Source: an uncultured Mediterraneibacter sp. (GTDB lineage Bacteria; Bacillota; Clostridia; Lachnospirales; Lachnospiraceae). Taken from it: a stretch of DNA of 64,000 nucleotides. The notes beneath the pieces are model-generated. The model worked only from the letters and a program-made list of their open reading frames with translations, did not search any database and had not been told where the DNA came from. Position 1 is the stretch's first letter. Every line of letters starts with the position of its first letter. Positions 35,863 through 55,815 of the stretch are shown here, piece after piece. The translations under genes were made by a program, and so were the position numbers. Location of the stretch: NCBI GenBank assembly GCA_944381495.1, contig CALWLJ010000016.1, positions 18,192-82,191 on the forward strand. Direction: 5' to 3'.

Positions 35863-36657
35863 TCATATCCTAATGATCTTCCGTGGACATTTCTCCGCAC
35901 ATACTCCGCAGTTTGTACACTTATCAGCATCAATATGGGCAAGAAAATTACTTACAGTAATAGCTCCTGACTCACAGTTTTTCTCGCATAAACGGCAGCC
36001 GATACATCCCACCTGACATACTTCCATCAGTGCTTTTCCCTTTTCATTGGAATTACACTGAACGAAAGTCTTCTGTTTATACGGGATCAGCTCGATCAGA
36101 TGCTTGGGACATGCGGCAACGCATTTTCCGCATGCTTTGCAGGCTTCCTTATCTACTACTGCAATACCATCAACTATATGAATCGCGTCAAATGGACATG
36201 CCTTGACACAGCTCCCGTAACCAAGACATCCGTAAGCGCATCCTTTTGCTCCGCCGTCCTGCATCTGGCTTGCCATAAGACAATCCTTGATTCCGTCATA
36301 TTCATATTCTGTTATAGCCTTCTCACAAGTTCCCGCGCACTTAACAAAAGCAACTTTACGCTCCTGTGTTCCAGCCTCCACTCCCATAATTTTCCCTATC
36401 TTGTCCGCTACGGGCGCACCGCCTACCGGACATCCGTTTACTTCCGCCTGGCCAGCCACAATAGCCGCCGCCAGTCCGGAACATCCGGCATATCCGCAGC
36501 CGCCACAGTTATTCCCCGGGAGTACCTCAAGGATCGCCTCTTCTCTCTCATCCACTTCTACGGCGAACTTTTTACCGGAGATTCCAAGGAAGACACCGAT
36601 GAACAGTCCAGTACCGCCCACGATAACAGCAGCTAAAATAATTTCTGTTACACTCAT
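35863..36657 (-). CDS. rnfB: Rnf complex subunit RnfB (ferredoxin-type)
   Basis: 264 residues. N-terminal membrane anchor (about 5-27), then the NCGGCGYAGCSGLA iron-sulfur site (near 50-63), then ferredoxin-like repeats with CX2CX2CX3C cysteines at SCVKACPFDA, CKACGKCVAACP, CIGCRLCEKNC and CTNCGVCAEKCP. RnfB is thought to take electrons from reduced ferredoxin. Clostridial RnfB is longer than the proteobacterial one, and this fits. Last gene of the operon. Confidence 0.96.
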   Translation of the reverse strand: MSVTEIILAAVIVGGTGLFIGVFLGISGKKFAVEVDEREEAILEVLPGNNCGGCGYAGCSGLAAAIVAGQAEVNGCPVGGAPVADKIGKIMGVEAGTQERKVAFVKCAGTCEKAITEYEYDGIKDCLMASQMQDGGAKGCAYGCLGYGSCVKACPFDAIHIVDGIAVVDKEACKACGKCVAACPKHLIELIPYKQKTFVQCNSNEKGKALMEVCQVGCIGCRLCEKNCESGAITVSNFLAHIDADKCTNCGVCAEKCPRKIIRI

Positions 36658-36670
36658 ATCATCTTTCCTC

Positions 36671-37267
36671 CTATATCAGTCCTGAAAATCCGAAGAACGC
36701 AATAGCCATCAGCCCTGCTGTTACAAGTACGATGGGCGTACCCTGGAAAGATTCACTAATGTCGTTATGTTCGATTTTTTCGCGGATTCCTGCCATAAGT
36801 ACGATAGAAATCAAGAAACCGAAAGCGGTTGCAAATCCATTCACAACGCCCGTCAGAATTCCATATCCGCTTTCCACATTAGTTAATGCGACACCAAGAA
36901 CTGCACAGTTCGTCGTGATCAGCGGAAGATACACGCCCAGCGCATTATACAAAGACGGCATGGATTTCTTCAAAAACATTTCCACAAACTGTACAAGAGC
37001 AGCTATGACAAGGATAAATACGATGGTGTTCAGATACTCCAGTTCACCATTCATGATATTCTTGTTGCCAAGTATAAACTTATAGATCAGCCCTGTTACA
37101 AAGGAAGCAATTGTAATAACAAACACAACAGCGCTTCCCATACCAGCTGCTGTCTTTACATTTTTGGATACCCCGAGAAACGGGCAAATTCCAAGGAACT
37201 GACTGAGTACTACGTTATTTACAAATGCAGAACCAACTGCAATCAATAATAATTCCTGTATTCCCAT
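36671..37267 (-). CDS. rnfA: Rnf complex subunit RnfA
   Basis: 198 residues with six membrane segments. Family blocks: VNNVVLSQFLGICPFLGVS and YLPLITTNCAVLGVAL. RnfA and RnfE are homologous, face opposite ways, and hold an iron-sulfur cluster within the membrane with the conserved cysteines. 13 bp before rnfB. Confidence 0.96.
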   Translation of the reverse strand: MGIQELLLIAVGSAFVNNVVLSQFLGICPFLGVSKNVKTAAGMGSAVVFVITIASFVTGLIYKFILGNKNIMNGELEYLNTIVFILVIAALVQFVEMFLKKSMPSLYNALGVYLPLITTNCAVLGVALTNVESGYGILTGVVNGFATAFGFLISIVLMAGIREKIEHNDISESFQGTPIVLVTAGLMAIAFFGFSGLI

Positions 37268-37278
37268 ACCTGTTCCTC

Positions 37279-38001
37279 CTATCCTCTATTATTATTTCCG
37301 CTCTGGGAAACCGTCATATGACCGCCGCAGGCTCCGCGGTTTCCGCAGGCTGCACACCCTGCTCCGCAGTCAGCTGCCGCCGGTACTTCTTTTCCTTTTT
37401 TCGCAGCTGCTCTTTTTATCTTATTCTGAAGAGCAACCAGTGCAGCTAACACGAAGAAAGCTCCAGGCGCCAGGACAAAAATTGTAAGCGGTACATAAGA
37501 GTCCGGCATAACCTGAATGCCGAAAATCTGTCCGGCTCCGATCAGCTCTCTGACGATACCGATAGATGTCAGTCCAACAGTAAATCCAAGTCCCATTCCC
37601 ACTCCATCAAAGATAGAAGGAAGAACAGGATTTTTGGAAGCGTAACTCTCAGCTCGTCCGAGAATGATACAGTTTACAACGATAAGAGGAATATAGAGTC
37701 CCAGCGAATCATAGAGGCTGGGAACAAATCCTTCAAGCAGGAAATCCACGATCGTTACAAAGGAAGCTACAACTACGATGAAGGCCGGCATTCTGACTGA
37801 ATCAGGAATAATCTTTCTCAGCATGGAGATCAGCATATTTGACATGATCAGCACCGCCGTAGTAGAAAGTCCCATACCAATTCCATTGATCGCAGATGTT
37901 GTGACAGCCAGAGTAGGACACATCCCCAGCATCAGGACAAAGGTCGGGTTCTCTTTTACAAGTCCGTTATAGATTCTTTCTGTACATTTATTCACTGACA
38001 A
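37279..38001 (-). CDS. rnfE: Rnf complex subunit RnfE
   Basis: 240 residues, six membrane segments. NPTFVLMLGMCPTLAVTTSA and YIPLIVVNCIILGRAE match RnfE. The C terminus carries an added Gly/Cys-rich stretch (CGAGCAACGNRGACGGH) not needed in the core family; it might bind metal. Overlaps rnfG by 14 bp. Confidence 0.95.
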   Translation of the reverse strand: MSVNKCTERIYNGLVKENPTFVLMLGMCPTLAVTTSAINGIGMGLSTTAVLIMSNMLISMLRKIIPDSVRMPAFIVVVASFVTIVDFLLEGFVPSLYDSLGLYIPLIVVNCIILGRAESYASKNPVLPSIFDGVGMGLGFTVGLTSIGIVRELIGAGQIFGIQVMPDSYVPLTIFVLAPGAFFVLAALVALQNKIKRAAAKKGKEVPAAADCGAGCAACGNRGACGGHMTVSQSGNNNRG

Positions 38002-38602
38002 CGCCTCCTAACTCATTCTGATAATAAACGAGGGCAGAGTTTACCGCATTGGTAACTGCATTGGTAGTGATCGTCGCTCCACTGATGGCATCGATCTTAT
38101 CATCTCCTGTTTCCCCGCTCTTTGTATAGGAAAACCGCTCCACCTGTTTGTCTTTAAACTGGTCTTTAAACTCTGCTTCATCAGCTTTCATTCCAAGACC
38201 GGCCGTCTCACTGATGGAGAGCATCTCCACTCCTTTTACTGTACCGTCAGTGGCGATTCCGACGGACAGCTGGAGTTCCCCGTCATAAGCCTCGCTGGAA
38301 GTCACATTAATGACATATCCGACAGTCTCCCCACTGTCATCTGTCCCTTCCGCCACCTCAGTAATCGTATCTGAAGTGTAGCCATTCTCCTGAAGCAGCT
38401 CTGTTGCTGTATCCGTATCAAATCCTTCGTAATCTTCAAAGGAAGACGCATCCGCCAGTACCGTGCGGAAGGCTTCCTGCTTTGTATTCTCCTGCGCACG
38501 GGCAATGGGTTCCTTCGTAACTCCGTAAACAACTCCAAGCAGAAGGCCGGAAACAACAGTAATCGATGTCAGAATCATCGTATTTTTCAAAATATTGTTC
38601 AT
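37988..38602 (-). CDS. rnfG: Rnf complex subunit RnfG (covalent FMN)
   Basis: 204 residues. Membrane anchor at about 8-30 and an outside FMN domain. DAISGATITTNAV near 175 holds the threonine that ApbE modifies. Links to rnfD by the TAATG overlap at 38602. Confidence 0.95.
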   Translation of the reverse strand: MNNILKNTMILTSITVVSGLLLGVVYGVTKEPIARAQENTKQEAFRTVLADASSFEDYEGFDTDTATELLQENGYTSDTITEVAEGTDDSGETVGYVINVTSSEAYDGELQLSVGIATDGTVKGVEMLSISETAGLGMKADEAEFKDQFKDKQVERFSYTKSGETGDDKIDAISGATITTNAVTNAVNSALVYYQNELGGVVSE

Positions 38603-39534
38603 TACCTCTCGCCTCCTTTTCCAAACGGTTTCGGAAGAGTGATTTTCTCGATCAGCGGAACAAGAAGATTACTGATGATAATAGCATAGGAAACCCCCTC
38701 TGCGGAACCGCCGAAAAGCCGGAACAGACCAGTCAGAAGCCCCATGCACACACCATACAAAATCCTTCCCTTTGTAGTAATCGGTGATGTGACATAATCC
38801 GTCGCCATAAACCATGCGCCAAGCATAAGACCGCCGCCGCAAAGATGTGCGGTAATATATTGCGGATCCAGGCCATGTCCCCCAAAAATCACGATAAACA
38901 CAACAAAAGAAATAAGGTAAGACGCCGGAATCGTCAGATCGATCACACCCATCAGGATCAGGAACATCGCTCCGATCATGATAGCGATCACAGAAGTCTC
39001 TCCAATCGTACCTCTGATATTTCCAATCAGCATATCCATCGTGTTCACAGCTTCTCCTGCCTTCAGATCAGCGAGAGGTGTAGGACCGGTAACACCGTCA
39101 TAGACAAAGGATGTCATCTGCCCTGTAAAACAGATAAGGAGAAAACATCTTGCTGCAAGGGCAGGGTTCATGAAATTCTGTCCAAGACCGCCAAAAAGCT
39201 GTTTTACAACTACAATCGCAAACACGGAGCCAAGGACTCCCATCCACCATGGAAGCGTAGGCGGAAGATTCAATGCAAGCAAAAGACCTGTCACTACCGC
39301 GCTGAAATCATTGATCGTGATCGGTTTATGCATCAGTTTTTCATATATGTACTCTGATAAAACTGCCGCTGCTGTCGTCACCACAACAAGGATCCATGCA
39401 TTCTCATGCCGGAAATTCCAAATACCGAAAACAGTAGCAGGCAGAAGACCGATCACTACCATGAGCATAATATTGCTGCTCTTTATCTTATCCCTGATAT
39501 GCGGTGAAGATGATACTCTATATTTTTCGTTCAA
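38602..39534 (-). CDS. rnfD: Rnf complex subunit RnfD
   Basis: 310 residues with about nine membrane segments. Family blocks are SSPHIRDKIKSSNIM at the start, FGGLGQNFMNPALAARCFLL, and DGVTGPTPLAD, which corresponds to the flavinylation site (usually GATPLA), here with Pro in place of Ala. The Thr is kept. Confidence 0.95.
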   Translation of the reverse strand: MNEKYRVSSSPHIRDKIKSSNIMLMVVIGLLPATVFGIWNFRHENAWILVVVTTAAAVLSEYIYEKLMHKPITINDFSAVVTGLLLALNLPPTLPWWMGVLGSVFAIVVVKQLFGGLGQNFMNPALAARCFLLICFTGQMTSFVYDGVTGPTPLADLKAGEAVNTMDMLIGNIRGTIGETSVIAIMIGAMFLILMGVIDLTIPASYLISFVVFIVIFGGHGLDPQYITAHLCGGGLMLGAWFMATDYVTSPITTKGRILYGVCMGLLTGLFRLFGGSAEGVSYAIIISNLLVPLIEKITLPKPFGKGGER

Positions 39535-39550
39535 TTTCCAGTCACCTCTC

Positions 39551-40870
39551 TTACTTCTTCCTCTTATTCGCCAGAGCCGTCTTACGCATGGAGCCGATCG
39601 CCTGTTTCAGCTGTCGTTTTGCCGGACAGACATAGCTGCAGGAACCACATTCCACACATTCGAGACCGTTCATCGCCACAAACGAATCGATATCCTGTCT
39701 TCTTGCATAATCAGCAAGTCTGGACGGAATGATCCTGCTCGGGCATACTTCAACACATCTTCCGCAATTAATACATGCTGTCTCCGGATTTCTGGAGACA
39801 ACATCCTTCTTAAACGCGAGAATAGCTGATGACGTCTTTGTCACAGGTGCGTCGGGAGTAACCATTGCAAATCCCATCATGGGACCTCCGGAAATCAGCT
39901 TCGCTGGCTGTTCTGTAAATCCGCCTGCCGCTTTGATCAGATTCAGATGATTTGTTCCCAGAAGCACACGGAAGTTTCCCGGATTCTGAACGGCATCTCC
40001 GCTGACTGTGACAACTCGTTCTGTCAGAGGCCGCCCGTTGATCACCGCATTATGAATAGCAATCAGCGTTTCCACATTATCTACGATACAACCCGCATCA
40101 GCCGGAAGCATCGAGGAATTAATCGCTCTCTTTGTAACAGCATAAATCAGCTGACGTTCTGCTCCCTGAGGATATTTTGTCACCAGAGCTTTTACATCCA
40201 TCCTGGGCTCATCCGCAACAGCTTCCTGAAGTTTGCTGATACAGTCCCTCTTATTATCTTCAACAGCAAAAATTCCCTTTGCATTCGGGAAAAGAGAAAG
40301 CACCACACGCATTCCACTGACAAGATCTGATGTATTTTCCAGCATCCGTCTGTAATCTGCCGTAATATACGGCTCACATTCCGCACAGTTTGCTATGATA
40401 TAATCAATCTTCTCAGGCTCCTTTGGAGACAGCTTGACCCGTGTCGGAAAACCTGCTCCTCCCATTCCGACAATACCGGCATCTCCTATCTTTTCCAGGA
40501 TTTCCTCCGAAGTCATCTCTTCCATCGGCTTTACCGGTCCATAATCTACCTCGTTGTATTCCCCGTCATTTTCAATCACAATACATTCCACTTTGTTCCC
40601 GGCAGGATTGAAATGCTGCTCCATTCCTTTTACCGTCCCGGAAACAGAAGAATAAACCGGTGCAGAAACAAATCCGCCGGCTTCAGCTATCTTCTGCCCT
40701 TTCAGAACATGATCTCCCTTTTTTACTATCGGATTGGCAGGCGCTCCAATATGTTGTGAAAGGGGGTATATCATATCTCCTTCAGGCAGCAGCGGCCGGA
40801 TCGGCTGGTCCTTTGAAAAGCGTTTTCCATCATCCGGATGTATTCCGCCTTTAAATGTCAAAAGTCCCAT
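39551..40870 (-). CDS. rnfC: Rnf complex subunit RnfC (NADH-binding)
   Basis: 439 residues. Contains the flavin/NADH-binding region (GMGGAGFPTRVKL; NCAECEPYITADY) and two ferredoxin-type clusters (CINCGRCVEVCP, CVECGSCSYVCP) near 365-415. RnfC passes electrons to NAD from the complex. First gene of rnfCDGEAB, the order typical of acetogens and clostridia; the pump moves Na+ or H+ outward while reducing NAD with ferredoxin. Confidence 0.96.
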   Translation of the reverse strand: MGLLTFKGGIHPDDGKRFSKDQPIRPLLPEGDMIYPLSQHIGAPANPIVKKGDHVLKGQKIAEAGGFVSAPVYSSVSGTVKGMEQHFNPAGNKVECIVIENDGEYNEVDYGPVKPMEEMTSEEILEKIGDAGIVGMGGAGFPTRVKLSPKEPEKIDYIIANCAECEPYITADYRRMLENTSDLVSGMRVVLSLFPNAKGIFAVEDNKRDCISKLQEAVADEPRMDVKALVTKYPQGAERQLIYAVTKRAINSSMLPADAGCIVDNVETLIAIHNAVINGRPLTERVVTVSGDAVQNPGNFRVLLGTNHLNLIKAAGGFTEQPAKLISGGPMMGFAMVTPDAPVTKTSSAILAFKKDVVSRNPETACINCGRCVEVCPSRIIPSRLADYARRQDIDSFVAMNGLECVECGSCSYVCPAKRQLKQAIGSMRKTALANKRKK

Positions 40871-48095: not shown

Positions 48096-49511
48096 CTATA
48101 CCGGATAAGCTCCGTTAGCCGTATCAGCTACTGCCGGGTCAACCTTTGTCTGCTGAGCCTGTCTGTATTTGAAGAAATCTACCGCTACCTGCGGGAACAG
48201 TGCATATGTCAGCACATCCTCATCCTGCTGGATCCACTGCTCGCACTCTTTTCTCAGAGTATCAAGCTCATTGGGGATCAGATCAGCCGGACGGCATGTA
48301 ATGATCTCTGCATCTTCTCCCAGGATCTTCTTCTGAAGCTCCGGATTAACCGGCTTCACTGTAGCGCCGTATTTTCCTGCAAGGATATCCTTCGTCTCCT
48401 GAGTTGCCACCTTATAGCGCTCACCCATAAGAACATTCAGAACAGCCTGTGTTCCAACGATCTGTGAAGAAGGAGTAACCAGCGGCGGCTCACCCAGATC
48501 CTTACGCACACGCGGAACCTCTTCCAGTACATCATAGAACTTATCTTCTGCACCCTGCTCTTTCAGCTGGGATGTCAGGTTGGAGAGCATACCGCCCGGA
48601 ACCTGATAGAGAAGCGTCTTGATATTAACACCGAGGTTCGTCGGATTGAGCAGGCCGCTCTTGAGAGCCTCATCCTTGATCGGACGGAAGTAATCAGCGA
48701 TCTCAGCCAGGAGATTCTGATCAAGCCCTGTATCATAAGGTGTGCCTCTGAACGTCTCGACCATAACCTCTGTAGCCGGCTGAGAAGTTCCGAGCGCAAA
48801 CGGTGAAATAGCAGTATCAATGATATCAGCTCCTGCTTCTACCGCTTTCATATAAGTCATTGATGCAACACCGGACGTATAATGTGTGTGCATCTCAATC
48901 GGAATGCTGACCGCTTCTTTCAGAGCTGTTACAAGCTCCGTAGCCTGATACGGAAGAAGAAGACCTGCCATATCCTTTACACAGATAGAGTTTGCTCCCA
49001 TGTCCTCGATTCTCTTTGCAAGATCTACCCAGTAATCAAGGGTATAAGCATCGCCGAGAGTATAGGACATTGCGACCTGCGCATGAGCCTTTTCCTTGTT
49101 AGCGGCCGTAACTGCTGTCTGAAGATTTCTGATGTCGTTCAGGCAGTCAAAGATACGGATGATATCGATTCCGTTGGCACAGGATTTCTGTACAAAATAC
49201 TCTACTACATCATCAGCATAGGGACGATATCCAAGGATATTCTGTCCACGGAAAAGCATCTGCAGCTTTGTATTCTTAAAGCCGTCACGGAACTTTCTCA
49301 GTCTCTCCCAGGGATCTTCTTTCAGGAAACGCAGGGATGCGTCAAAAGTAGCGCCGCCCCAGCACTCTACTGCATGATACCCAACTTTATCCATTTTATC
49401 AATGATGGGGAGCATCTGTTCCGTCGTCATTCTGGTGGCAATCAGGGACTGATGTGCGTCACGCAGAATGGTTTCAACTATTTTAACTGGTTTCTTTTCA
49501 ATTTCTGCCAT
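48096..49511 (-). CDS. oadA: Oxaloacetate decarboxylase/pyruvate carboxylase-type carboxyltransferase (OadA, 5S-like)
   Basis: 471 residues. The carboxyltransferase barrel (about 8-290) shows VETILRDAHQSLIATRM, CWGGATFDASLRFL, DIIRIFDCLND, CVKDMAGLL and HTHYTSG; the conserved Lys of KDM becomes carbamylated and holds a metal. Residues about 300-471 are the PYC_OADA domain. No biotinyl domain is attached; that is encoded separately at 50705-51094. This fits the 5S subunit of transcarboxylase, acting on pyruvate/oxaloacetate. Confidence 0.9.
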   Translation of the reverse strand: MAEIEKKPVKIVETILRDAHQSLIATRMTTEQMLPIIDKMDKVGYHAVECWGGATFDASLRFLKEDPWERLRKFRDGFKNTKLQMLFRGQNILGYRPYADDVVEYFVQKSCANGIDIIRIFDCLNDIRNLQTAVTAANKEKAHAQVAMSYTLGDAYTLDYWVDLAKRIEDMGANSICVKDMAGLLLPYQATELVTALKEAVSIPIEMHTHYTSGVASMTYMKAVEAGADIIDTAISPFALGTSQPATEVMVETFRGTPYDTGLDQNLLAEIADYFRPIKDEALKSGLLNPTNLGVNIKTLLYQVPGGMLSNLTSQLKEQGAEDKFYDVLEEVPRVRKDLGEPPLVTPSSQIVGTQAVLNVLMGERYKVATQETKDILAGKYGATVKPVNPELQKKILGEDAEIITCRPADLIPNELDTLRKECEQWIQQDEDVLTYALFPQVAVDFFKYRQAQQTKVDPAVADTANGAYPV

Positions 49512-49529
49512 TTATTTGTCCTCCATTAA

Positions 49530-50681
49530 TTACTTAACGCCAAAGATTGCCATGAATGTACCGGCAACGACTGCTGTTCCGATAACACCTGCCACGTTCG
49601 GCCCCATGGCATGCATCAGAAGGAAATTGGTAGGATCAGCCTCGGAACCAACCTTCTGTGACACACGCGCCGCCATAGGTACAGCGGACACGCCGGCGGA
49701 ACCGATCAGCGGATTTACTTTTCCCTTTGTTACCCAGCACATCAGTTTACCAAAGAGCACACCTGCAGCAGTACCGAATGCGAATGCGATAAGACCGAGG
49801 ATAACGATCTTGATCGTATCCATATTCAGGAATGCTTCCGCGCTTGTTGTAGCGCCAACGGATGTACCCAGCAGGATAACAACGATATACATCAGAACAT
49901 TTGCAGCAGTATCTGTCAGCTGTCTTACAACGCCTGACTCCTTGAACAGGTTACCAAGCATCAGCATACCTACCAGCGGAGCAGTCGTAGGAAGGATCAC
50001 GCAGACAACGATCGTAATGATGATCGGGAACAGGATTCTCTCCAGTTTAGATACCGGACGGAGCTGCTCCATCTTGATCTGACGCTCTTCCTTTGTTGTA
50101 AGGAGCTTCATGATCGGCGGCTGAATAATCGGCACAAGAGACATATAAGAATATGCCGCTACCGCAATCGGTCCGAGGATAGCCGTCTGCTCCAGTTTTC
50201 CTGCGAGGAAAATAGAAGTCGGTCCGTCAGCTCCACCGATAATGGAGATAGCCGCTGCAGCTCTGTCGGAGAATCCCATTGCCATAGCTCCCAGATATGC
50301 GGCGAAAATACCGAACTGGGCAGCCGCTCCGAGAAGGAAACTCTTCGGATTGGCGATCAGCGGTCCGAAATCCGTCATAGCTCCGACGCCAAGGAAGATC
50401 AGAGACGGAAGGATCGACCATTCATCAAGTACATAAAAGTAATAAAGAAGTCCGCCAGTTCCGTTTGACGCCTCTTCCGGGCTGATCATGATATCAGGAT
50501 AGATATTGACGAGCAGCATACCGAAGGCGATCGGAACAAGCAGCAGCGGCTCGAAGCCGTGCCTGATCGCTAAGTAGAGAAAGATGCAGGCAACACCGAT
50601 CATGATCAGGTTTCCAACCGTCAGGTTCATGAAAGCGGTCTGCTCAACAAGGTTCCCCAGCGTATTTGAAATATATTCCAT
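49530..50681 (-). CDS. oadB: Sodium-pumping decarboxylase beta subunit
   Basis: 383 residues with about nine to eleven membrane segments. GGADGPTSIFLA near 165 has the Asp that is key for Na+ coupling in this family, and TAPLVGMLMLGNLFKESGVV and MHAMGPNVAGVIGTAVVAG are diagnostic. It decarboxylates carboxybiotin while moving Na+ outward. One such subunit serves the cluster. Confidence 0.95.
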   Translation of the reverse strand: MEYISNTLGNLVEQTAFMNLTVGNLIMIGVACIFLYLAIRHGFEPLLLVPIAFGMLLVNIYPDIMISPEEASNGTGGLLYYFYVLDEWSILPSLIFLGVGAMTDFGPLIANPKSFLLGAAAQFGIFAAYLGAMAMGFSDRAAAAISIIGGADGPTSIFLAGKLEQTAILGPIAVAAYSYMSLVPIIQPPIMKLLTTKEERQIKMEQLRPVSKLERILFPIIITIVVCVILPTTAPLVGMLMLGNLFKESGVVRQLTDTAANVLMYIVVILLGTSVGATTSAEAFLNMDTIKIVILGLIAFAFGTAAGVLFGKLMCWVTKGKVNPLIGSAGVSAVPMAARVSQKVGSEADPTNFLLMHAMGPNVAGVIGTAVVAGTFMAIFGVK

Positions 50682-50704
50682 TTTTCAAACCTCCTGGTAA
50701 GTCA

Positions 50705-51094
50705 TTAATTTAATGTCGCTAATACTGCTCCTGCCTCGATAGAGTCGCCTACGGCTACGTCGATGCTGGCAATGGTTCCTGCCTCAGGAGCAACAACCGG
50801 GATCTCCATTTTCATAGCCTCGATGATCACAACCGCATCTCCGGCCTGAACAGACTGTCCAACTGTAGTCGGGATCTGATAAACCTTTCCTGCAGCTCCC
50901 GCTTTCACCTGGATCTTACCGGCTCCAGCCGCTTTCGGAGCAGCTGCCGGTGCTGGTGCAGCCTTCGGTGCAGCTGCGGGTGCTTTCGGTGCAGCTGTCG
51001 GTGCAGCAGCAGGCGCAGATCCTGCAGCCTTCTCTTCTACTGTTACATCATATACGTTTCCGTTTACTGTGATGGTATAGTTTTTCATTTCCAT
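50705..51094 (-). CDS. Biotin carboxyl carrier protein
   Basis: 129 residues. The biotinyl domain (about 58-129) has EAMKME with the Lys that receives biotin. It is preceded by an Ala/Pro-rich flexible linker (about 25-55) with repeated APAAAPKA-type units. Start region (MKNYTITVNGNVYDVTVEE) matches gamma subunits/1.3S proteins of decarboxylases. It shuttles carboxyl groups between the carboxyltransferases and OadB. Confidence 0.94.
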   Translation of the reverse strand: MEMKNYTITVNGNVYDVTVEEKAAGSAPAAAPTAAPKAPAAAPKAAPAPAAAPKAAGAGKIQVKAGAAGKVYQIPTTVGQSVQAGDAVVIIEAMKMEIPVVAPEAGTIASIDVAVGDSIEAGAVLATLN

Positions 51095-51106
51095 ATCCTC
51101 CTGATA

Positions 51107-51886
51107 TTAATTCCATTTATTTGATTTTCTTCTCCTGATCGAGCGGACAACAAATCCGTCCGTGGAGGTTCCCTCATACTCAGCGACAGCCGCAGCTATT
51201 ACAGCTGCAAGCTCTGTATCATCTGTCTCATCTTCTGCGGGGATCTCTTCCACCACAGGTTCAGCCGGCGCAGCCGGTGCTGGCGCCGCAGTCTCTTCGA
51301 CTGTTTTGTTTTTCCGGAACTTCTGCTCCAGAACCGGGATAAATTTCAGAAGCCAGATTACAAAGGACAGGAAGATCAGTACAACAAATACCGTTCCCAT
51401 TCCGAGGATCGTGTTAAGTCCTGCCTTCTGAAGGATCTCTCCTGTTGAATACTCAGCGCTGACTGTCAGACTCTCCATGTTCATTTCATCGTCAAAGGAA
51501 ATCTGGATCGTAGCATCCCTGTCAGCATACTCGGCGTCTGCTTCCATTGTAGCGCCGTCATTAGTCACTTCCATTTCGAAACCATCCACACCGATGAATG
51601 CACCGCACTCTTCAATTCCTGCATTCCACGCATTGATCATAGAAAGGAAATTCTCACCGGTGATCGGGAATCCTGCCTGGAGCAGGGTCAGATCAAGCTG
51701 CAGCTCAGACATATTCTGGAAGCTTGCAAAATCATCTTCTGACATGGAACTGAAATTCTGGATGAGAGCCTCTGAGTACTGGGCCATCTGGTTCTCATCA
51801 TATCCTGTCGTGTCGGACTGTCCGCATCCCGTAAAACTCAGAACAAGGATGAGGACAAGTCCCAATATACTGATTTTTTTCTTCAC
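51107..51886 (-). CDS. Lipoprotein domain fused to OadG-type subunit
   Basis: 259 residues. Residues 1-21 are a lipoprotein signal with lipobox SFTGC. Residues about 25-145 are an exported domain of unknown role with acidic, repetitive stretches. One membrane segment (about 155-178) follows, then an Ala/Pro/Glu-rich part and the ending GFVVRSIRRRK, typical of the OadG/decarboxylase gamma subunit. OadG alone is about 80-120 residues. The exported domain may sense or stabilise the complex outside the cell. Confidence 0.85.
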   Translation of the reverse strand: MKKKISILGLVLILVLSFTGCGQSDTTGYDENQMAQYSEALIQNFSSMSEDDFASFQNMSELQLDLTLLQAGFPITGENFLSMINAWNAGIEECGAFIGVDGFEMEVTNDGATMEADAEYADRDATIQISFDDEMNMESLTVSAEYSTGEILQKAGLNTILGMGTVFVVLIFLSFVIWLLKFIPVLEQKFRKNKTVEETAAPAPAAPAEPVVEEIPAEDETDDTELAAVIAAAVAEYEGTSTDGFVVRSIRRRKSNKWN

Positions 51887-51900
51887 TTCGCCTCACCTCA

Positions 51901-53340
51901 CTAAACCGTACCATGTTTTTTGTCGGGACGGTCCTCTCTCTTCGTGAACAGCATCTCAAAGGCGCCGATCACATATTTTCTCGTATCAGCCGGATTGATC
52001 ACTGCATCTACATATCCTCTCCTTGCTGCTGATTCCGGACTGGACTGAAGGTCTCTGTACTGAGCCGCCTTTTCTCTCTGTGTTGCAACATCTGCATCTG
52101 CATACATGATCTTTGCCGCCAGATCAGCATCCATCATTCCAATCTGAGCAGTCGGCCATGCATATACCATATCTGCTCCGATAGACTTGCTGTTCATTGT
52201 AACATATGCACTTCCATACGCCTTGCCGATGATCACATTTACTTTCGGAACTGTAGCATTTGCAAAAGTATATGTCAGTCTTGCAGCAGCTCTAGCCATG
52301 TTCTTCTCAGACTCGACTGTAGCAGCAAATCCAGCCACATTAGTGAGCGTAAGTACCGGAATGGAAAATGCATCGCAGAAATTAACGAAATCAATCGCTT
52401 TCTTGCAGCCGTCAACGGAAAGCGCGCAGTCAAAAGATGCTTCTTCATTTCCTTCTGCATCATAAACTTTTGTACGGTTCGCAACAGCACCTACAGTCAT
52501 TCCATTCAGACGGATAAATCCAGTCACCATATCTCTCGCATAATTTTTCTTTGCTTCAAAAAGAACATTGCCGTCAGAAATCTGTGCCAGAGCAATCGCA
52601 GTATCTTCTGAAGCATTCTCAATTTCCGTGCAAAGTCTGTTCAGATCATCTGTACAGTCTTCGTACGAAAGATCATCCTCGTAATTTGCAGGAATCATAC
52701 ATACCAGTGAGCGGATCTGAGAAAGGATCTCCGCTTCTGTTCCGATTCCATCGACAAGCCCAGCTACAGAACTCTGATACTCAGCTCCTGCAGTATCACA
52801 CTTGGAAGAATCATTTTCTTCCAGAGCGTTCGGAGAGTTTACAAAAAGTTTGGCACTTTTCGACTCCATAAATGTAAAATCAGCAAGTCCCGGAACAATG
52901 GCAAGTCCGCCGCCGCAAGTGCCGAAAATGGCTGTAATCTGCGGAACTACACCTGAAGCCATTGTCTGTCTGTAGTATAAACCGCCGAATGCCTCCAGTG
53001 CATCTGTAGCCTCCTGAAGTCTCATCCCGGCACAGTCGATCAGACCGATAACAGGTGCCCCCATCTTCATTGCCATGTCATAGATGTTTGCGATCTTCTT
53101 CGCGTGCATCTCTCCGATCGTTCCGCCAAGCACAGCGGCATCCTGGCTGTATACATACACAAGATTGCCGTCGATCACGCCGTATCCGGTGATAACGCCG
53201 TCAGACGGAGCTGCCTTTTCCTGCATGTTGAAATCAGTACTTCTGGCAGTAACAGCACCGCCGATTTCAACAAAACTTCCCTCATCAAGCAATGCCGCAA
53301 TTCGTCTGCCCGCTGAGTTTTCTGTTGCATTGTAGCTCAT
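51901..53340 (-). CDS. mmdA: Acyl-CoA carboxyltransferase (MmdA/12S-like)
   Basis: 479 residues of the carboxyl transferase family: N half with DGVITGYGVIDG and GMRLQEATDALEAFGG, C half with FATVESEKNMARAAARL-like AGFAATVESEKN and GKAYGSAYVTMNSKSIGADMVYAWP. This matches the alpha subunit of methylmalonyl-CoA decarboxylase or 12S subunit of transcarboxylase; glutaconyl-CoA forms differ somewhat and cannot be fully excluded. Family members are typically about 510 residues, so it is slightly short. First gene of the cluster, after a good promoter. Confidence 0.88.
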   Translation of the reverse strand: MSYNATENSAGRRIAALLDEGSFVEIGGAVTARSTDFNMQEKAAPSDGVITGYGVIDGNLVYVYSQDAAVLGGTIGEMHAKKIANIYDMAMKMGAPVIGLIDCAGMRLQEATDALEAFGGLYYRQTMASGVVPQITAIFGTCGGGLAIVPGLADFTFMESKSAKLFVNSPNALEENDSSKCDTAGAEYQSSVAGLVDGIGTEAEILSQIRSLVCMIPANYEDDLSYEDCTDDLNRLCTEIENASEDTAIALAQISDGNVLFEAKKNYARDMVTGFIRLNGMTVGAVANRTKVYDAEGNEEASFDCALSVDGCKKAIDFVNFCDAFSIPVLTLTNVAGFAATVESEKNMARAAARLTYTFANATVPKVNVIIGKAYGSAYVTMNSKSIGADMVYAWPTAQIGMMDADLAAKIMYADADVATQREKAAQYRDLQSSPESAARRGYVDAVINPADTRKYVIGAFEMLFTKREDRPDKKHGTV

Positions 53341-53630: not shown

Positions 53631-55619
53631 CTACTTCCGGTTTCTGTACTGGACAGGTGTTATATTATACATCTTTTTGAAGACACGGTTAAAGTGCTCC
53701 ACATTCTGATATCCTACAGACTCAGCTATACTTTCAACCGTTGCGCTGCTGCTTTTGAGCATGGCACGCGCTTTCTTCATCCGGACTTTCTTCAGGATAT
53801 CTCCAAATGTCATTCCCGATTTTTCTTTAATATATTTGGACAGATACGGTTTTGAAAGGAAGAACTTCTCCGCCAGATCATCCAGAGTCACATCTTTATA
53901 ATTTGCATAGATATAATTCGTGATCTCTAAAAGGCGTTCATCCTTATCAACCTGTGATTCAGTAACCTCTCTGATCTTGTTCACAGCAACTACAAGCGCT
54001 TCTATTGACGCCTTGATAATGTCTGCGTCAATACCGACGCCCCAGTAGCGTTTCTTATTGCAGAGTACTCCAACATATGCAACCGCTCTGGAGGAAGATC
54101 CTCTTGTAAGCGAATGTTCTTCATAAGATTCCAGTTCATAGCTTACGTCAAAGTAATGCTTGATGGCATTGCTGACCGCATCCAGACGTCCATTTCCCAC
54201 GCCGGTGATCTTCAGATCGTTTCCGTTGTGATGTATTGTTGCCTCTGCAACAATGCCGTCCTCCTGCTTGAAGTGGCACTCGTCAACAGAAAAGATCGGT
54301 TTCGCATTGATATAGTGATCTTCGAAGATCCGGTAAACCAGATCCGGAGTAAGCTCTTTATGAGCTTTGTCAGAAACATCTTTAACAAGATACCCGACTT
54401 CTTCCTTCATCTTGTCCGGAAGGCTGATGCCGAAGCTTTGCTTCAGGATGTAATTTACGCCGCCTTTACCAGACTGGCTGTTGATGCGGATAACGTCTGA
54501 ATCATATCGGCGTCCCACATCCTGCGGATCGATAGGAAGATAAGGAACTGTCCACTTCTCGCAGTGTTTCTCTTCACGCCATGCCATTCCCTTGGCAATG
54601 GCATCCTGATGGGAACCGGAAAATGCAGTAAATACAAGTTCGCCGGCATAGGGCTGTCTCGGGGAGACTTTCATTCTTGTCACACGCTCATATACTTCGC
54701 AGATATCGCTCATATTAGAGAAATCAAGTCCCGGATCTACTCCCTGTGAGAACATGTTCATGGCAAGTGTAATAATATCCACATTGCCGGTTCTCTCACC
54801 ATTTCCAAAGAGTGTGCCTTCAATCCGGTCTGCTCCTGCAAGGATACCAAGCTCTGCATCACTGATGCCGGATCCACGGTCATTATGCGGATGCAGGGAC
54901 AGGACCACGCTGTCTCTGTGAAGAAGGTGTTTATTAAAATATTCTACCTGAGATGCAAACACATGAGGCATTGCGTTCTCCACTGTTGTAGGAAGATTGA
55001 TAATTGCTTTGTTTTCCGGCGTAGGCGACCAGATATCAAGCACTGCATTGCAGACCTCGAGGGCATAATCCACTTCTGTTCCCTGGAAACTTTCCGGGCT
55101 GTATTCGAATGTAAAATTACCTTCCGTCTCCTCTGCCAGTTTTTTCAGCAGTTCTGCTCCATCCGTAGCAATTTTCTTAACTTCTTCTTTGCTCTTTCTA
55201 AACACCTGCTCTCTCTGAGCTACCGAAGTTGAATTGTATACATGTATAATCGCATGCGGCGCTCCTTTTACAGCATCGAAAGTTCGTTTAATAATATGCT
55301 CTCTTGCCTGAGTAAGCACCTGAATCGTTACATCATCCGGGATCATGTTCTGTTCGATCAGTGTCCGAAGGAACTGATACTCTGTCTCTGAAGCAGCCGG
55401 GAAGCCAACCTCGATCACTTTAAACCCTACATCTACAAGCAGCTGAAAAAATTCAAGTTTCTCATCCAGACTCATAGGTTCGATCAGAGCCTGATTTCCA
55501 TCTCTCAGATCGACACTGCACCAGATTGGATGTTTATCAATTGAATCTTTCTTTACCCAGTCATAGCATGGCTCGGGCGGCATAAAATAAGTCTTTTCAT
55601 ATTTCTTCCAGTTTTCCAT
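53631..55619 (-). CDS. leuA: 2-isopropylmalate synthase fused to AraC-type DNA-binding domain
   Basis: 662 residues; LeuA of this long type is usually about 560. Residues 1-430 are the synthase: DLRDGNQAL (37-45), HPHND (243-247) and GNGERTGN (272-279) supply the metal and catalytic residues. Residues about 440-555 are the leucine-binding regulatory domain. Residues 560-662 are a full AraC HTH pair: [20 protein letters not shown] and [20 protein letters not shown]. It condenses acetyl-CoA and 2-oxoisovalerate, first step of leucine synthesis; the fused domain could make it a leucine-sensing regulator. Single unbroken frame with AAGGAG upstream. No other leu gene is nearby. The fusion is seen; the regulatory role is inferred. 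Confidence 0.95.
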
Positions 55620-55679
55620 GATAGCCCTTCTCCTTATATTTCATCAATTTTATTGTTTGATTTTATCTTCACATATACT

Positions 55680-55730
55680 ATCATAGATTTCTTTTCTATA
55701 CCAGTGGCAAATTTAATCATTTGAATTGAT
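55680..55730 (-). promoter_or_regulatory. Candidate promoter and operator of leuA-AraC
   Basis: A TTGCCA box (55710-55705) and TATGAT (55685-55680) are 19 bp apart, a poor spacing typical of activated promoters. Just upstream lie an imperfect 15-bp palindrome (55716-55730, ATCA..TGAT) and CAAAT-N6-ATTTG (55708-55723), candidate sites for the fused AraC domain. Weak evidence. Confidence 0.35.
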
Positions 55731-55815
55731 CTTTTTTATCTTTCCTTGAAATTATACGATTTTCTTCTTCATTTATTTAAAAATAATTATTCCATATGAT
55801 CACTGCTTACAAAAA

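Follow-up and report, generated by a model that had tools for sequence, protein, structure and literature searches.

The leuA gene analysed here continues in frame into an AraC-type DNA-binding domain, and its promoter holds a 36-bp operator-like element, O1, which tracks the AraC domain among relatives and is new here. The gene lies in a stretch of 64,000 nucleotides (the window) from an uncultured Mediterraneibacter sp. (contig CALWLJ010000016.1). We consider it likely, with a probability of roughly two in three, that LeuA-AraC acts as a leucine-sensing activator of its own gene that replaces a T-box leader, with leucine as the off-switch and with DNA looping in part of the family.

A leuA gene fused in frame to an AraC-type domain

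The fusion gene occupies 53631..55619 on the reverse strand and is a single ATG-started open frame of 662 aa that runs uninterrupted through LeuA and the AraC-type domain. The original prediction, made from the letters of the window, had called a complete LeuA and an AraC domain in one frame, and this is borne out by the open frame and by Pfam. The limits it gave for the AraC part (residues 560-662) were correct, and the sequence contains no frameshift or missed stop between residues 555 and 560, where it had placed the weak point of the claim. The next gene downstream lies at 290 bp and the gene upstream at 196 bp. Given these intergenic gaps leuA-araC is probably transcribed alone, with read-through from the same-strand upstream gene a possibility. 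Elsewhere in the window, the genes downstream of leuA (48096-53340) look like a sodium-pumping biotin-dependent decarboxylase set, with carboxyltransferases, a biotin carrier and beta and gamma-like subunits, and a six-gene set at 35863-40870 resembles the Rnf electron transport complex; both sets are named from the appearance of their sequences.

The 2-isopropylmalate synthase part comprises residues 1-550 (53970..55619, reverse strand) and was recognised by Pfam, by Foldseek and by invariant catalytic residues. Pfam matched HMGL-like at residues 31-307 (1.6e-70), IPMS_D2 at 327-393 and LeuA_dimer at 422-549, that is, the catalytic TIM barrel, IPMS_D2 and the leucine-binding domain in the order expected of a 2-isopropylmalate synthase. 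The fusion protein scored 805.5 bits against NF002991, for which the cut-off is 455. A linker follows (residues 551-564; 53928..53969, reverse strand), variable in sequence and constant in length, and leads into the AraC-type DNA-binding domain at residues 565-662 (53634..53927, reverse strand). This domain was identified by Pfam, with HTH_18 at 582-661 (6.7e-22) and HTH_AraC at 621-660 (6e-13), and by predicted helices. PF12833 was matched over its whole length (1-80) and PF00165 was matched as well; AraC was the only type of DNA-binding domain that Pfam found in the fusion protein, and no domain of the PutA type was present.

In an AlphaFold2 model of the fusion (65-row alignment, mean pLDDT 84, pTM 0.64) the AraC part forms seven helices from residue 561 to 660, with block pLDDT values of 81-90 save for the last two residues. 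This pattern fits a pair of helix-turn-helix units with a long helix between them, so that the two motifs and joining helix of an AraC/XylS domain are indicated by the Pfam matches and the predicted helices alike. The placing of the domains relative to each other is unreliable in this model because pLDDT falls below 50 at residues 321-332, 374-376 and 380-384. The top Foldseek matches were the M. tuberculosis LeuA structures 3hps, 1sr9 and 3fig, the last of which is the leucine-bound form; the whole-chain alignment to M. tuberculosis LeuA reached a TM of only 0.46 (rmsd 17-22 A), and the domain placing was therefore not interpreted. The fusion is the sole LeuA found in its own genome. The protein search of that genome gave 34 other matches, 33 of them AraC-type domains (residues from about 538 on) and one weak (residues 237-344).

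Conservation of the enzyme and the AraC domain

The key catalytic residues R39, D40, H243, H245, GNGERTGN, H337 and Y372 do not vary among the 53 fused homologues and align to 1sr9. Beyond H379, Y410 and the GxGERxG motif of M. tuberculosis LeuA, the metal and substrate residues have roles that we take to be those usual for LeuA. The three exceptions are named in an excerpt of PMC2704214. The leucine-pocket loop GNGRL is kept in 52 of the 53 fused homologues. By a hand count against the residue list in the same excerpt of PMC2704214, M. tuberculosis G531, G533 and L535 keep their residue in the fusion, and A536, which belongs to the M. tuberculosis leucine pocket and feedback set, corresponds to D480 here and is aspartate in all 53 fused proteins. 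From the residues that are kept, catalysis and leucine inhibition of the fusion are predicted.

Constraint extends to the AraC domain. Mean column conservation among 40 diverse representatives was 0.80 in the AraC domain, 0.88 in the catalytic domain, 0.77 in LeuA_dimer and 0.50 in the linker (residues 550-564). All but one of the 53 fused homologues have 43 residues in the segment from residue 546 to 588. In a set of 40 close relatives pN was 0.026 in the AraC domain versus 0.041 in the catalytic domain; no dN/dS ratio is given for the AraC part because synonymous sites are saturated.

Distribution and phylogeny of the fusion

A full-length fusion was present in 44 of 200 sampled genomes of the family, the window's own genome included (counted by hand from the listing), and this sample also held one fusion cut at a contig end and two that were split. 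Within the genus, 29 of 31 genomes had the full-length fusion; one of the other two had a fragment in a 164-aa open frame and one had no match. A class-wide draw of 391 genomes contained 13 full-length fusions, three of them in two other families, which suggests transfer. Carriers by name include Mediterraneibacter, Faecalicatena, Muricomes, Claveliimonas, Schaedlerella and [Ruminococcus] torques. LeuA homologues longer than 640 residues, for which a search had been proposed, were found: 108 of 110 loci checked for length (30 from the own-genome and family searches, 80 from a further homologue set) align beyond residue 640. The remaining two are L090, which meets a contig end, and L099, from one MAG, whose frame breaks at the enzyme/AraC junction near residue 556-560. 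In L187 (genome G061) and L190 (genome G078) the AraC domain lies in a different frame right after the leuA stop and O1 is kept; this could be a real gene split or an assembly or sequence break.

In a quick tree built from the enzyme parts of 90 LeuA proteins and rooted at the midpoint for drawing only, the 56 domain-bearing rows fall within one group of 61, with a support of 91, below the 95 taken as firm. The other five rows of this group are domain-less and nested among AraC-bearing ones. The fewest domain changes that the tree allows is six, of which three are forced by well-supported branches. One gain of the AraC domain and several losses would be the simplest, if unproven, reading, and the five nested domain-less leuA genes are probably separate losses.

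O1, a putative self-operator upstream of the fused gene

Alignment of the upstream regions exposed an element with the consensus TAAAAAAAATCAATAAAAATGATTAAATTTATCACT. In the window it lies at 55703..55738 (reverse strand), inside the region 55620-55815 that had been suggested as a binding target for the protein. A matrix was made from 41 sites and 900 bp upstream were scanned leave-one-out. The window site scored 42.8 bits leave-one-out and 44.6 bits with the full matrix; as a chance control, 1740 dinucleotide-shuffled upstream regions gave a mean of -17.7 and a maximum of 12.4 bits. O1 reached at least 12.3 bits in 52 of the 53 fused loci, and most scored above 20. The two lowest scores, 12.3 at L217 and 14.8 at L036, are close to the highest shuffled ones, and L217 does not exceed 12.4. 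The one fused protein without a recognisable O1 is that of L218 (-4.1 bits).

Both split loci (44.7 and 21.1 bits) and the contig-cut locus (42.6 bits) carry O1. Overall O1 was present at 55 of 56 loci with an AraC domain, whether fused, split or contig-cut, versus none of the 34 without, where the best score within the 900 bp scanned was 4.5 bits. The two split loci look unfused yet have O1, and in both the leuA stop is followed closely by sequence that encodes the AraC domain. None of the five nested domain-less leuA genes has O1. Sites that lie upstream of T-box leaders were missed in a 400-bp scan and were recovered with longer flanks. In the further set of 80 loci, which contains many near relatives of the window and includes the contig-cut L090 and the frame-broken L099, 79 had enough flank and all 79 scored above 10 bits. 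The three genomes of the two other families likewise have both the domain and O1. An independent-pair test could not reach significance (median p 0.25) because there are only three well-supported domain changes and the rows are related.

The exact O1 core TAAANNNNATCAANNNNNNTGATTAA was found in 29 of 200 genomes, once in each and in all 29 upstream of leuA, and a reversed-core control gave no occurrence in the 200 genomes. Degenerate sites would escape this exact-match screen. The comparison as a whole strongly supports O1 as the putative self-operator of LeuA-AraC.

Promoter geometry and a second candidate site

Compared with itself, the O1 matrix gives its best match when shifted by 22 bp (-0.04; the next best is -0.39 at 23 bp), and by this measure O1 is a predicted direct repeat with a period of 22 bp and half-sites about two helical turns apart. 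Some sites are in addition partly palindromic (TGATTAAATTTAATCA; GGAAAGTGA..TCACTTTCC), which a pure direct-repeat reading does not explain. These palindromes are clade-specific and lie in the right half of O1 (GGAAAGTGA...TCACTTTCC; TGATTAAATTTAATCA) at L015, L017-L020 and L028, L032-L035.

An extended -10 element, TGATAGTAT, lies at 55675..55683 (reverse strand), 19 bp after O1. Of 55 loci, 47 have the corresponding element (TGNTANNNT) at a spacing of exactly 19 bp from O1 to its start and five at 17-18 bp; in three it was not found there, and at the 57 other offsets it occurs only seven times. The best -35 match at a spacing of 16-18 bp agrees at two, three or four of six positions in 8, 21 and 16 loci, respectively, among the 45 loci whose O1 scores at least 30 bits. 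When the -10 hexamer is set at -12 to -7 by convention, O1 extends from -70 to -35 and is centred at -52.5. An excerpt of PMC7408454 describes the AraC half-sites I1 and I2 at PBAD as direct repeats centred at -52.5 and overlapping the -35 region, and with the start placed by convention the centre of O1 is the same. O1 thus has the predicted layout of an AraC-type activator site, namely a direct repeat that overlaps -35 at a fixed distance from the promoter.

A weaker candidate second site, O2 (55640..55665, reverse strand; 13.3 bits), lies at about +4 to +29 and in the window adjoins the inferred start of transcription on its downstream side. Start to start, O1 and O2 are 73 bp apart in the window. 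In 18 of 55 loci, nearly all in the clade around the window, plus L190, a candidate O2 is found at 72-77 bp when counted from the start of O1, or about two less when counted between the two starts; at L014 the candidate is about one turn closer (65, i.e. 63). From this spacing we infer that O1 and O2 may be joined by looping.

Other possible targets

Other branched-chain amino acid promoters had also been put forward as targets, and this part of the original prediction did not hold up. No O1-like site above 10 bits was found at leuB-ilvD-ilvB or ilvC of the window's own genome or at 20 leuC regions of fused genomes, among which the best score was 9.3 bits (L144). The leuC genes of L149 and L157 were located by match coordinates, and a longer reverse-strand frame overlies them in the list of open reading frames. 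An earlier mismatch search had given scattered matches to the O1 core with one or two mismatches. With one mismatch allowed, the own genome contains 13 further places, versus five in all for the reversed control; two of the 13 were read and neither is amino-acid related.

No LeuC was found in the own genome (G000), which has only an aconitase of about 757 aa on contig C6, with leuB-ilvD-ilvB and ilvC present; this reflects either a gap in the 91% complete assembly or a real loss. The missing LeuC might suggest that LeuA has lost its metabolic role, but the genus does not bear this out: a full-length LeuC match in an open frame of LeuC size (426-467 aa) is present in 26 of its 31 genomes. Two genus relatives have extra aconitase-family matches in pieces (G590:C4:187685-190678 and G592:C25:22222-23238), some of which share one LeuC-size open frame. 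G590 also has two shorter frames (297 and 197 aa) beside its LeuC-size frame, perhaps a decayed copy.

The fused gene and T-box leaders

T-box leaders are RNA elements that read uncharged tRNA and raise expression when charged tRNA is scarce. Rfam detected a T-box leader at 15 of 20 unfused leuA loci scanned and at 5 of 20 domain-bearing loci (18 fused and two split), the latter figure not being a rate because the loci were chosen, five of them for a T-box motif. Across all 87 loci the motif precedes 22 of the 34 unfused genes and six of the 53 fused ones; in these six O1 lies upstream of the T-box. Among the nested domain-less genes, L189 and L193 have an Rfam T-box and L195 has the motif only; L188 and L192 have neither, nor do they have O1. 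In a few T-boxes CTC or CTG stands in a specifier-like context, as judged by motif reading with no fold, and this would fit leucine.

The best reading of this distribution is that the AraC domain together with O1 forms a module that would substitute for the T-box leader. A T-box turns expression up when charged tRNA runs short, and whatever replaces it should work in the same direction; this is the main argument for leucine as the off-signal.

A model for LeuA-AraC and its alternatives

In the model that we favour LeuA-AraC would be an enzyme and a transcription factor in one chain, with its own gene as the main or only target, and it probably switches its own production on and off. The AraC domain would bind the O1 half-sites that abut the -35 region (-70 to -35), and the bound protein would recruit RNA polymerase to the extended -10 promoter and turn leuA on. 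When leucine is plentiful it would bind LeuA_dimer, which directly precedes the AraC domain at a fixed linker length; catalysis would then be inhibited and the activator disengaged. In part of the family disengagement could proceed by pairing of O1 with O2, as AraC does with a distant operator.

Binding of O1 by the AraC domain, activation, leucine as the signal and any looping are steps that we infer. Activation is the most likely mode because O1 keeps a fixed phase with the -10 element, and leucine is the presumed natural ligand because the leucine domain adjoins the AraC domain at a fixed distance; ketoisovalerate, acetyl-CoA or the product could signal in its place. The original prediction had proposed that the enzyme senses leucine and regulates transcription itself. 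Control of its own promoter is well supported by comparison, the conserved site tracking the AraC domain, and leucine may be the signal. The co-occurrence of domain and O1 points to the own gene as the target, which would make LeuA-AraC a trigger enzyme. A fuller version of the model, to which we give a little less than even odds, is a one-gene homeostat: the feedback-inhibited enzyme would be the dedicated activator of its own promoter, one leucine domain would set both catalysis and transcription through an AraC-like half-site switch, with an O2 loop in part of the family, and the unit would be inherited or transferred as a whole and replace the T-box.

The same self-operator could work with the opposite sign: LeuA-AraC would then occlude the -35 region and repress leuA, and leucine would be the co-repressor or the product or substrate would carry the signal. 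Protein bound at O1, next to the promoter, or at O2, across the start of transcription, would be placed where it can block polymerase, and an extended -10 promoter can be active without an activator. We nevertheless regard repression as unlikely: base-pair-exact spacing to the -10 element at 47 of 55 loci is expected more for contact with polymerase than for blocking, AraC at the equivalent position activates PBAD (excerpt of PMC7408454), and an excerpt of PMC4486848 describes the XylS-AraC family regulators as activators in general. It is more doubtful still that the chief targets of the AraC domain are other genes, forming a branched-chain amino acid regulon, with autoregulation only incidental. 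Exact-core searches do miss degenerate sites, O2 itself has only 13 bits and the L144 leuC region reaches 9.3; against this stand the core found solely before leuA in 200 genomes, the lack of sites above 10 bits at the leuB-ilvD-ilvB, ilvC and 20 leuC regions searched, and the two one-mismatch places read in the own genome.

That O1 belongs to another regulator, the AraC domain being a passenger or a structural add-on, strikes us as very improbable. Binding of O1 by this domain is a prediction, but O1 accompanies the domain at 55 of 56 loci and is found at none of 34 without it, nonsynonymous change among close relatives is no higher in the AraC domain than in the catalytic part, and domain and site appear together in other families. 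An assembly chimera or a frameshift that joined leuA to an AraC gene has next to no chance of explaining the fusion. One relative, L099, does show a frame break at the junction, with nothing of the kind in this window, and such an artefact is ruled out by the full-length fusions, which come from 44 of the 200 genomes of the family, with different genus codes, and from 29 of the 31 of the genus, single-contig assemblies included.

Comparison with known systems

Among the papers listed by searches of open-access PubMed Central, no title concerned a LeuA-AraC fusion, and the searches met no biosynthetic enzyme under feedback inhibition that combines an AraC domain with a dedicated self-operator. 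End-product control of activity and of expression is usually exerted by separate molecules, and here one chain with one leucine site apparently serves both. Sister genes with a T-box, genes with both T-box and O1, and joint losses of domain and site are natural controls, so that the evolution of this gene control is testable. LeuA-AraC would also offer a compact switch that responds to leucine. The fusion is common in Lachnospiraceae of the gut, where the supply of branched-chain amino acids matters to the host.

The fusion shares its barrel, IPMS_D2, leucine-binding dimer domain and key residues with LeuA of the NF002991/PRK03739 type (M. tuberculosis 1sr9, 3fig), to which it adds the C-terminal AraC DNA-binding domain and the putative self-operator. 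T-box leaders precede many of the sister leuA genes without an AraC domain and are RNA-based, whereas LeuA-AraC would act as a protein on DNA. The DNA-binding folds of PutA and BirA, ribbon-helix-helix and winged helix, differ from the AraC type. Like the proposed LeuA-AraC, both combine a metabolic enzyme and a transcription factor in one chain, and an excerpt of PMC6978683 describes them as enzyme-repressors, PutA repressing the put operon. The original prediction had called the fusion PutA-like; this holds for enzyme and regulator in one chain, but PutA is a repressor and the site here has the geometry of an AraC activator site.

Ada and AraC appear to be the closer analogues. The DNA-binding part of Ada is of the AraC type. 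As in our reading of LeuA-AraC, Ada is an enzyme that activates transcription of its own gene, which it does in its methylated form (excerpt of PMC4437013). Ada differs in being a suicide DNA-repair protein with several targets; in LeuA-AraC the residues are those of an anabolic enzyme that is catalytic and feedback-inhibited, and one target was detected. With AraC at PBAD of E. coli the fusion shares the two-HTH domain, direct-repeat half-sites centred at -52.5 and overlapping -35, and a further operator that would permit a loop (excerpts of PMC7408454 and PMC4486848). In LeuA-AraC, however, the ligand-binding half is a full biosynthetic enzyme, the candidate second site lies downstream at about 73 bp and not 211 bp upstream as for AraC, and the effect of the ligand is expected to be reversed, with the end product switching the gene off.
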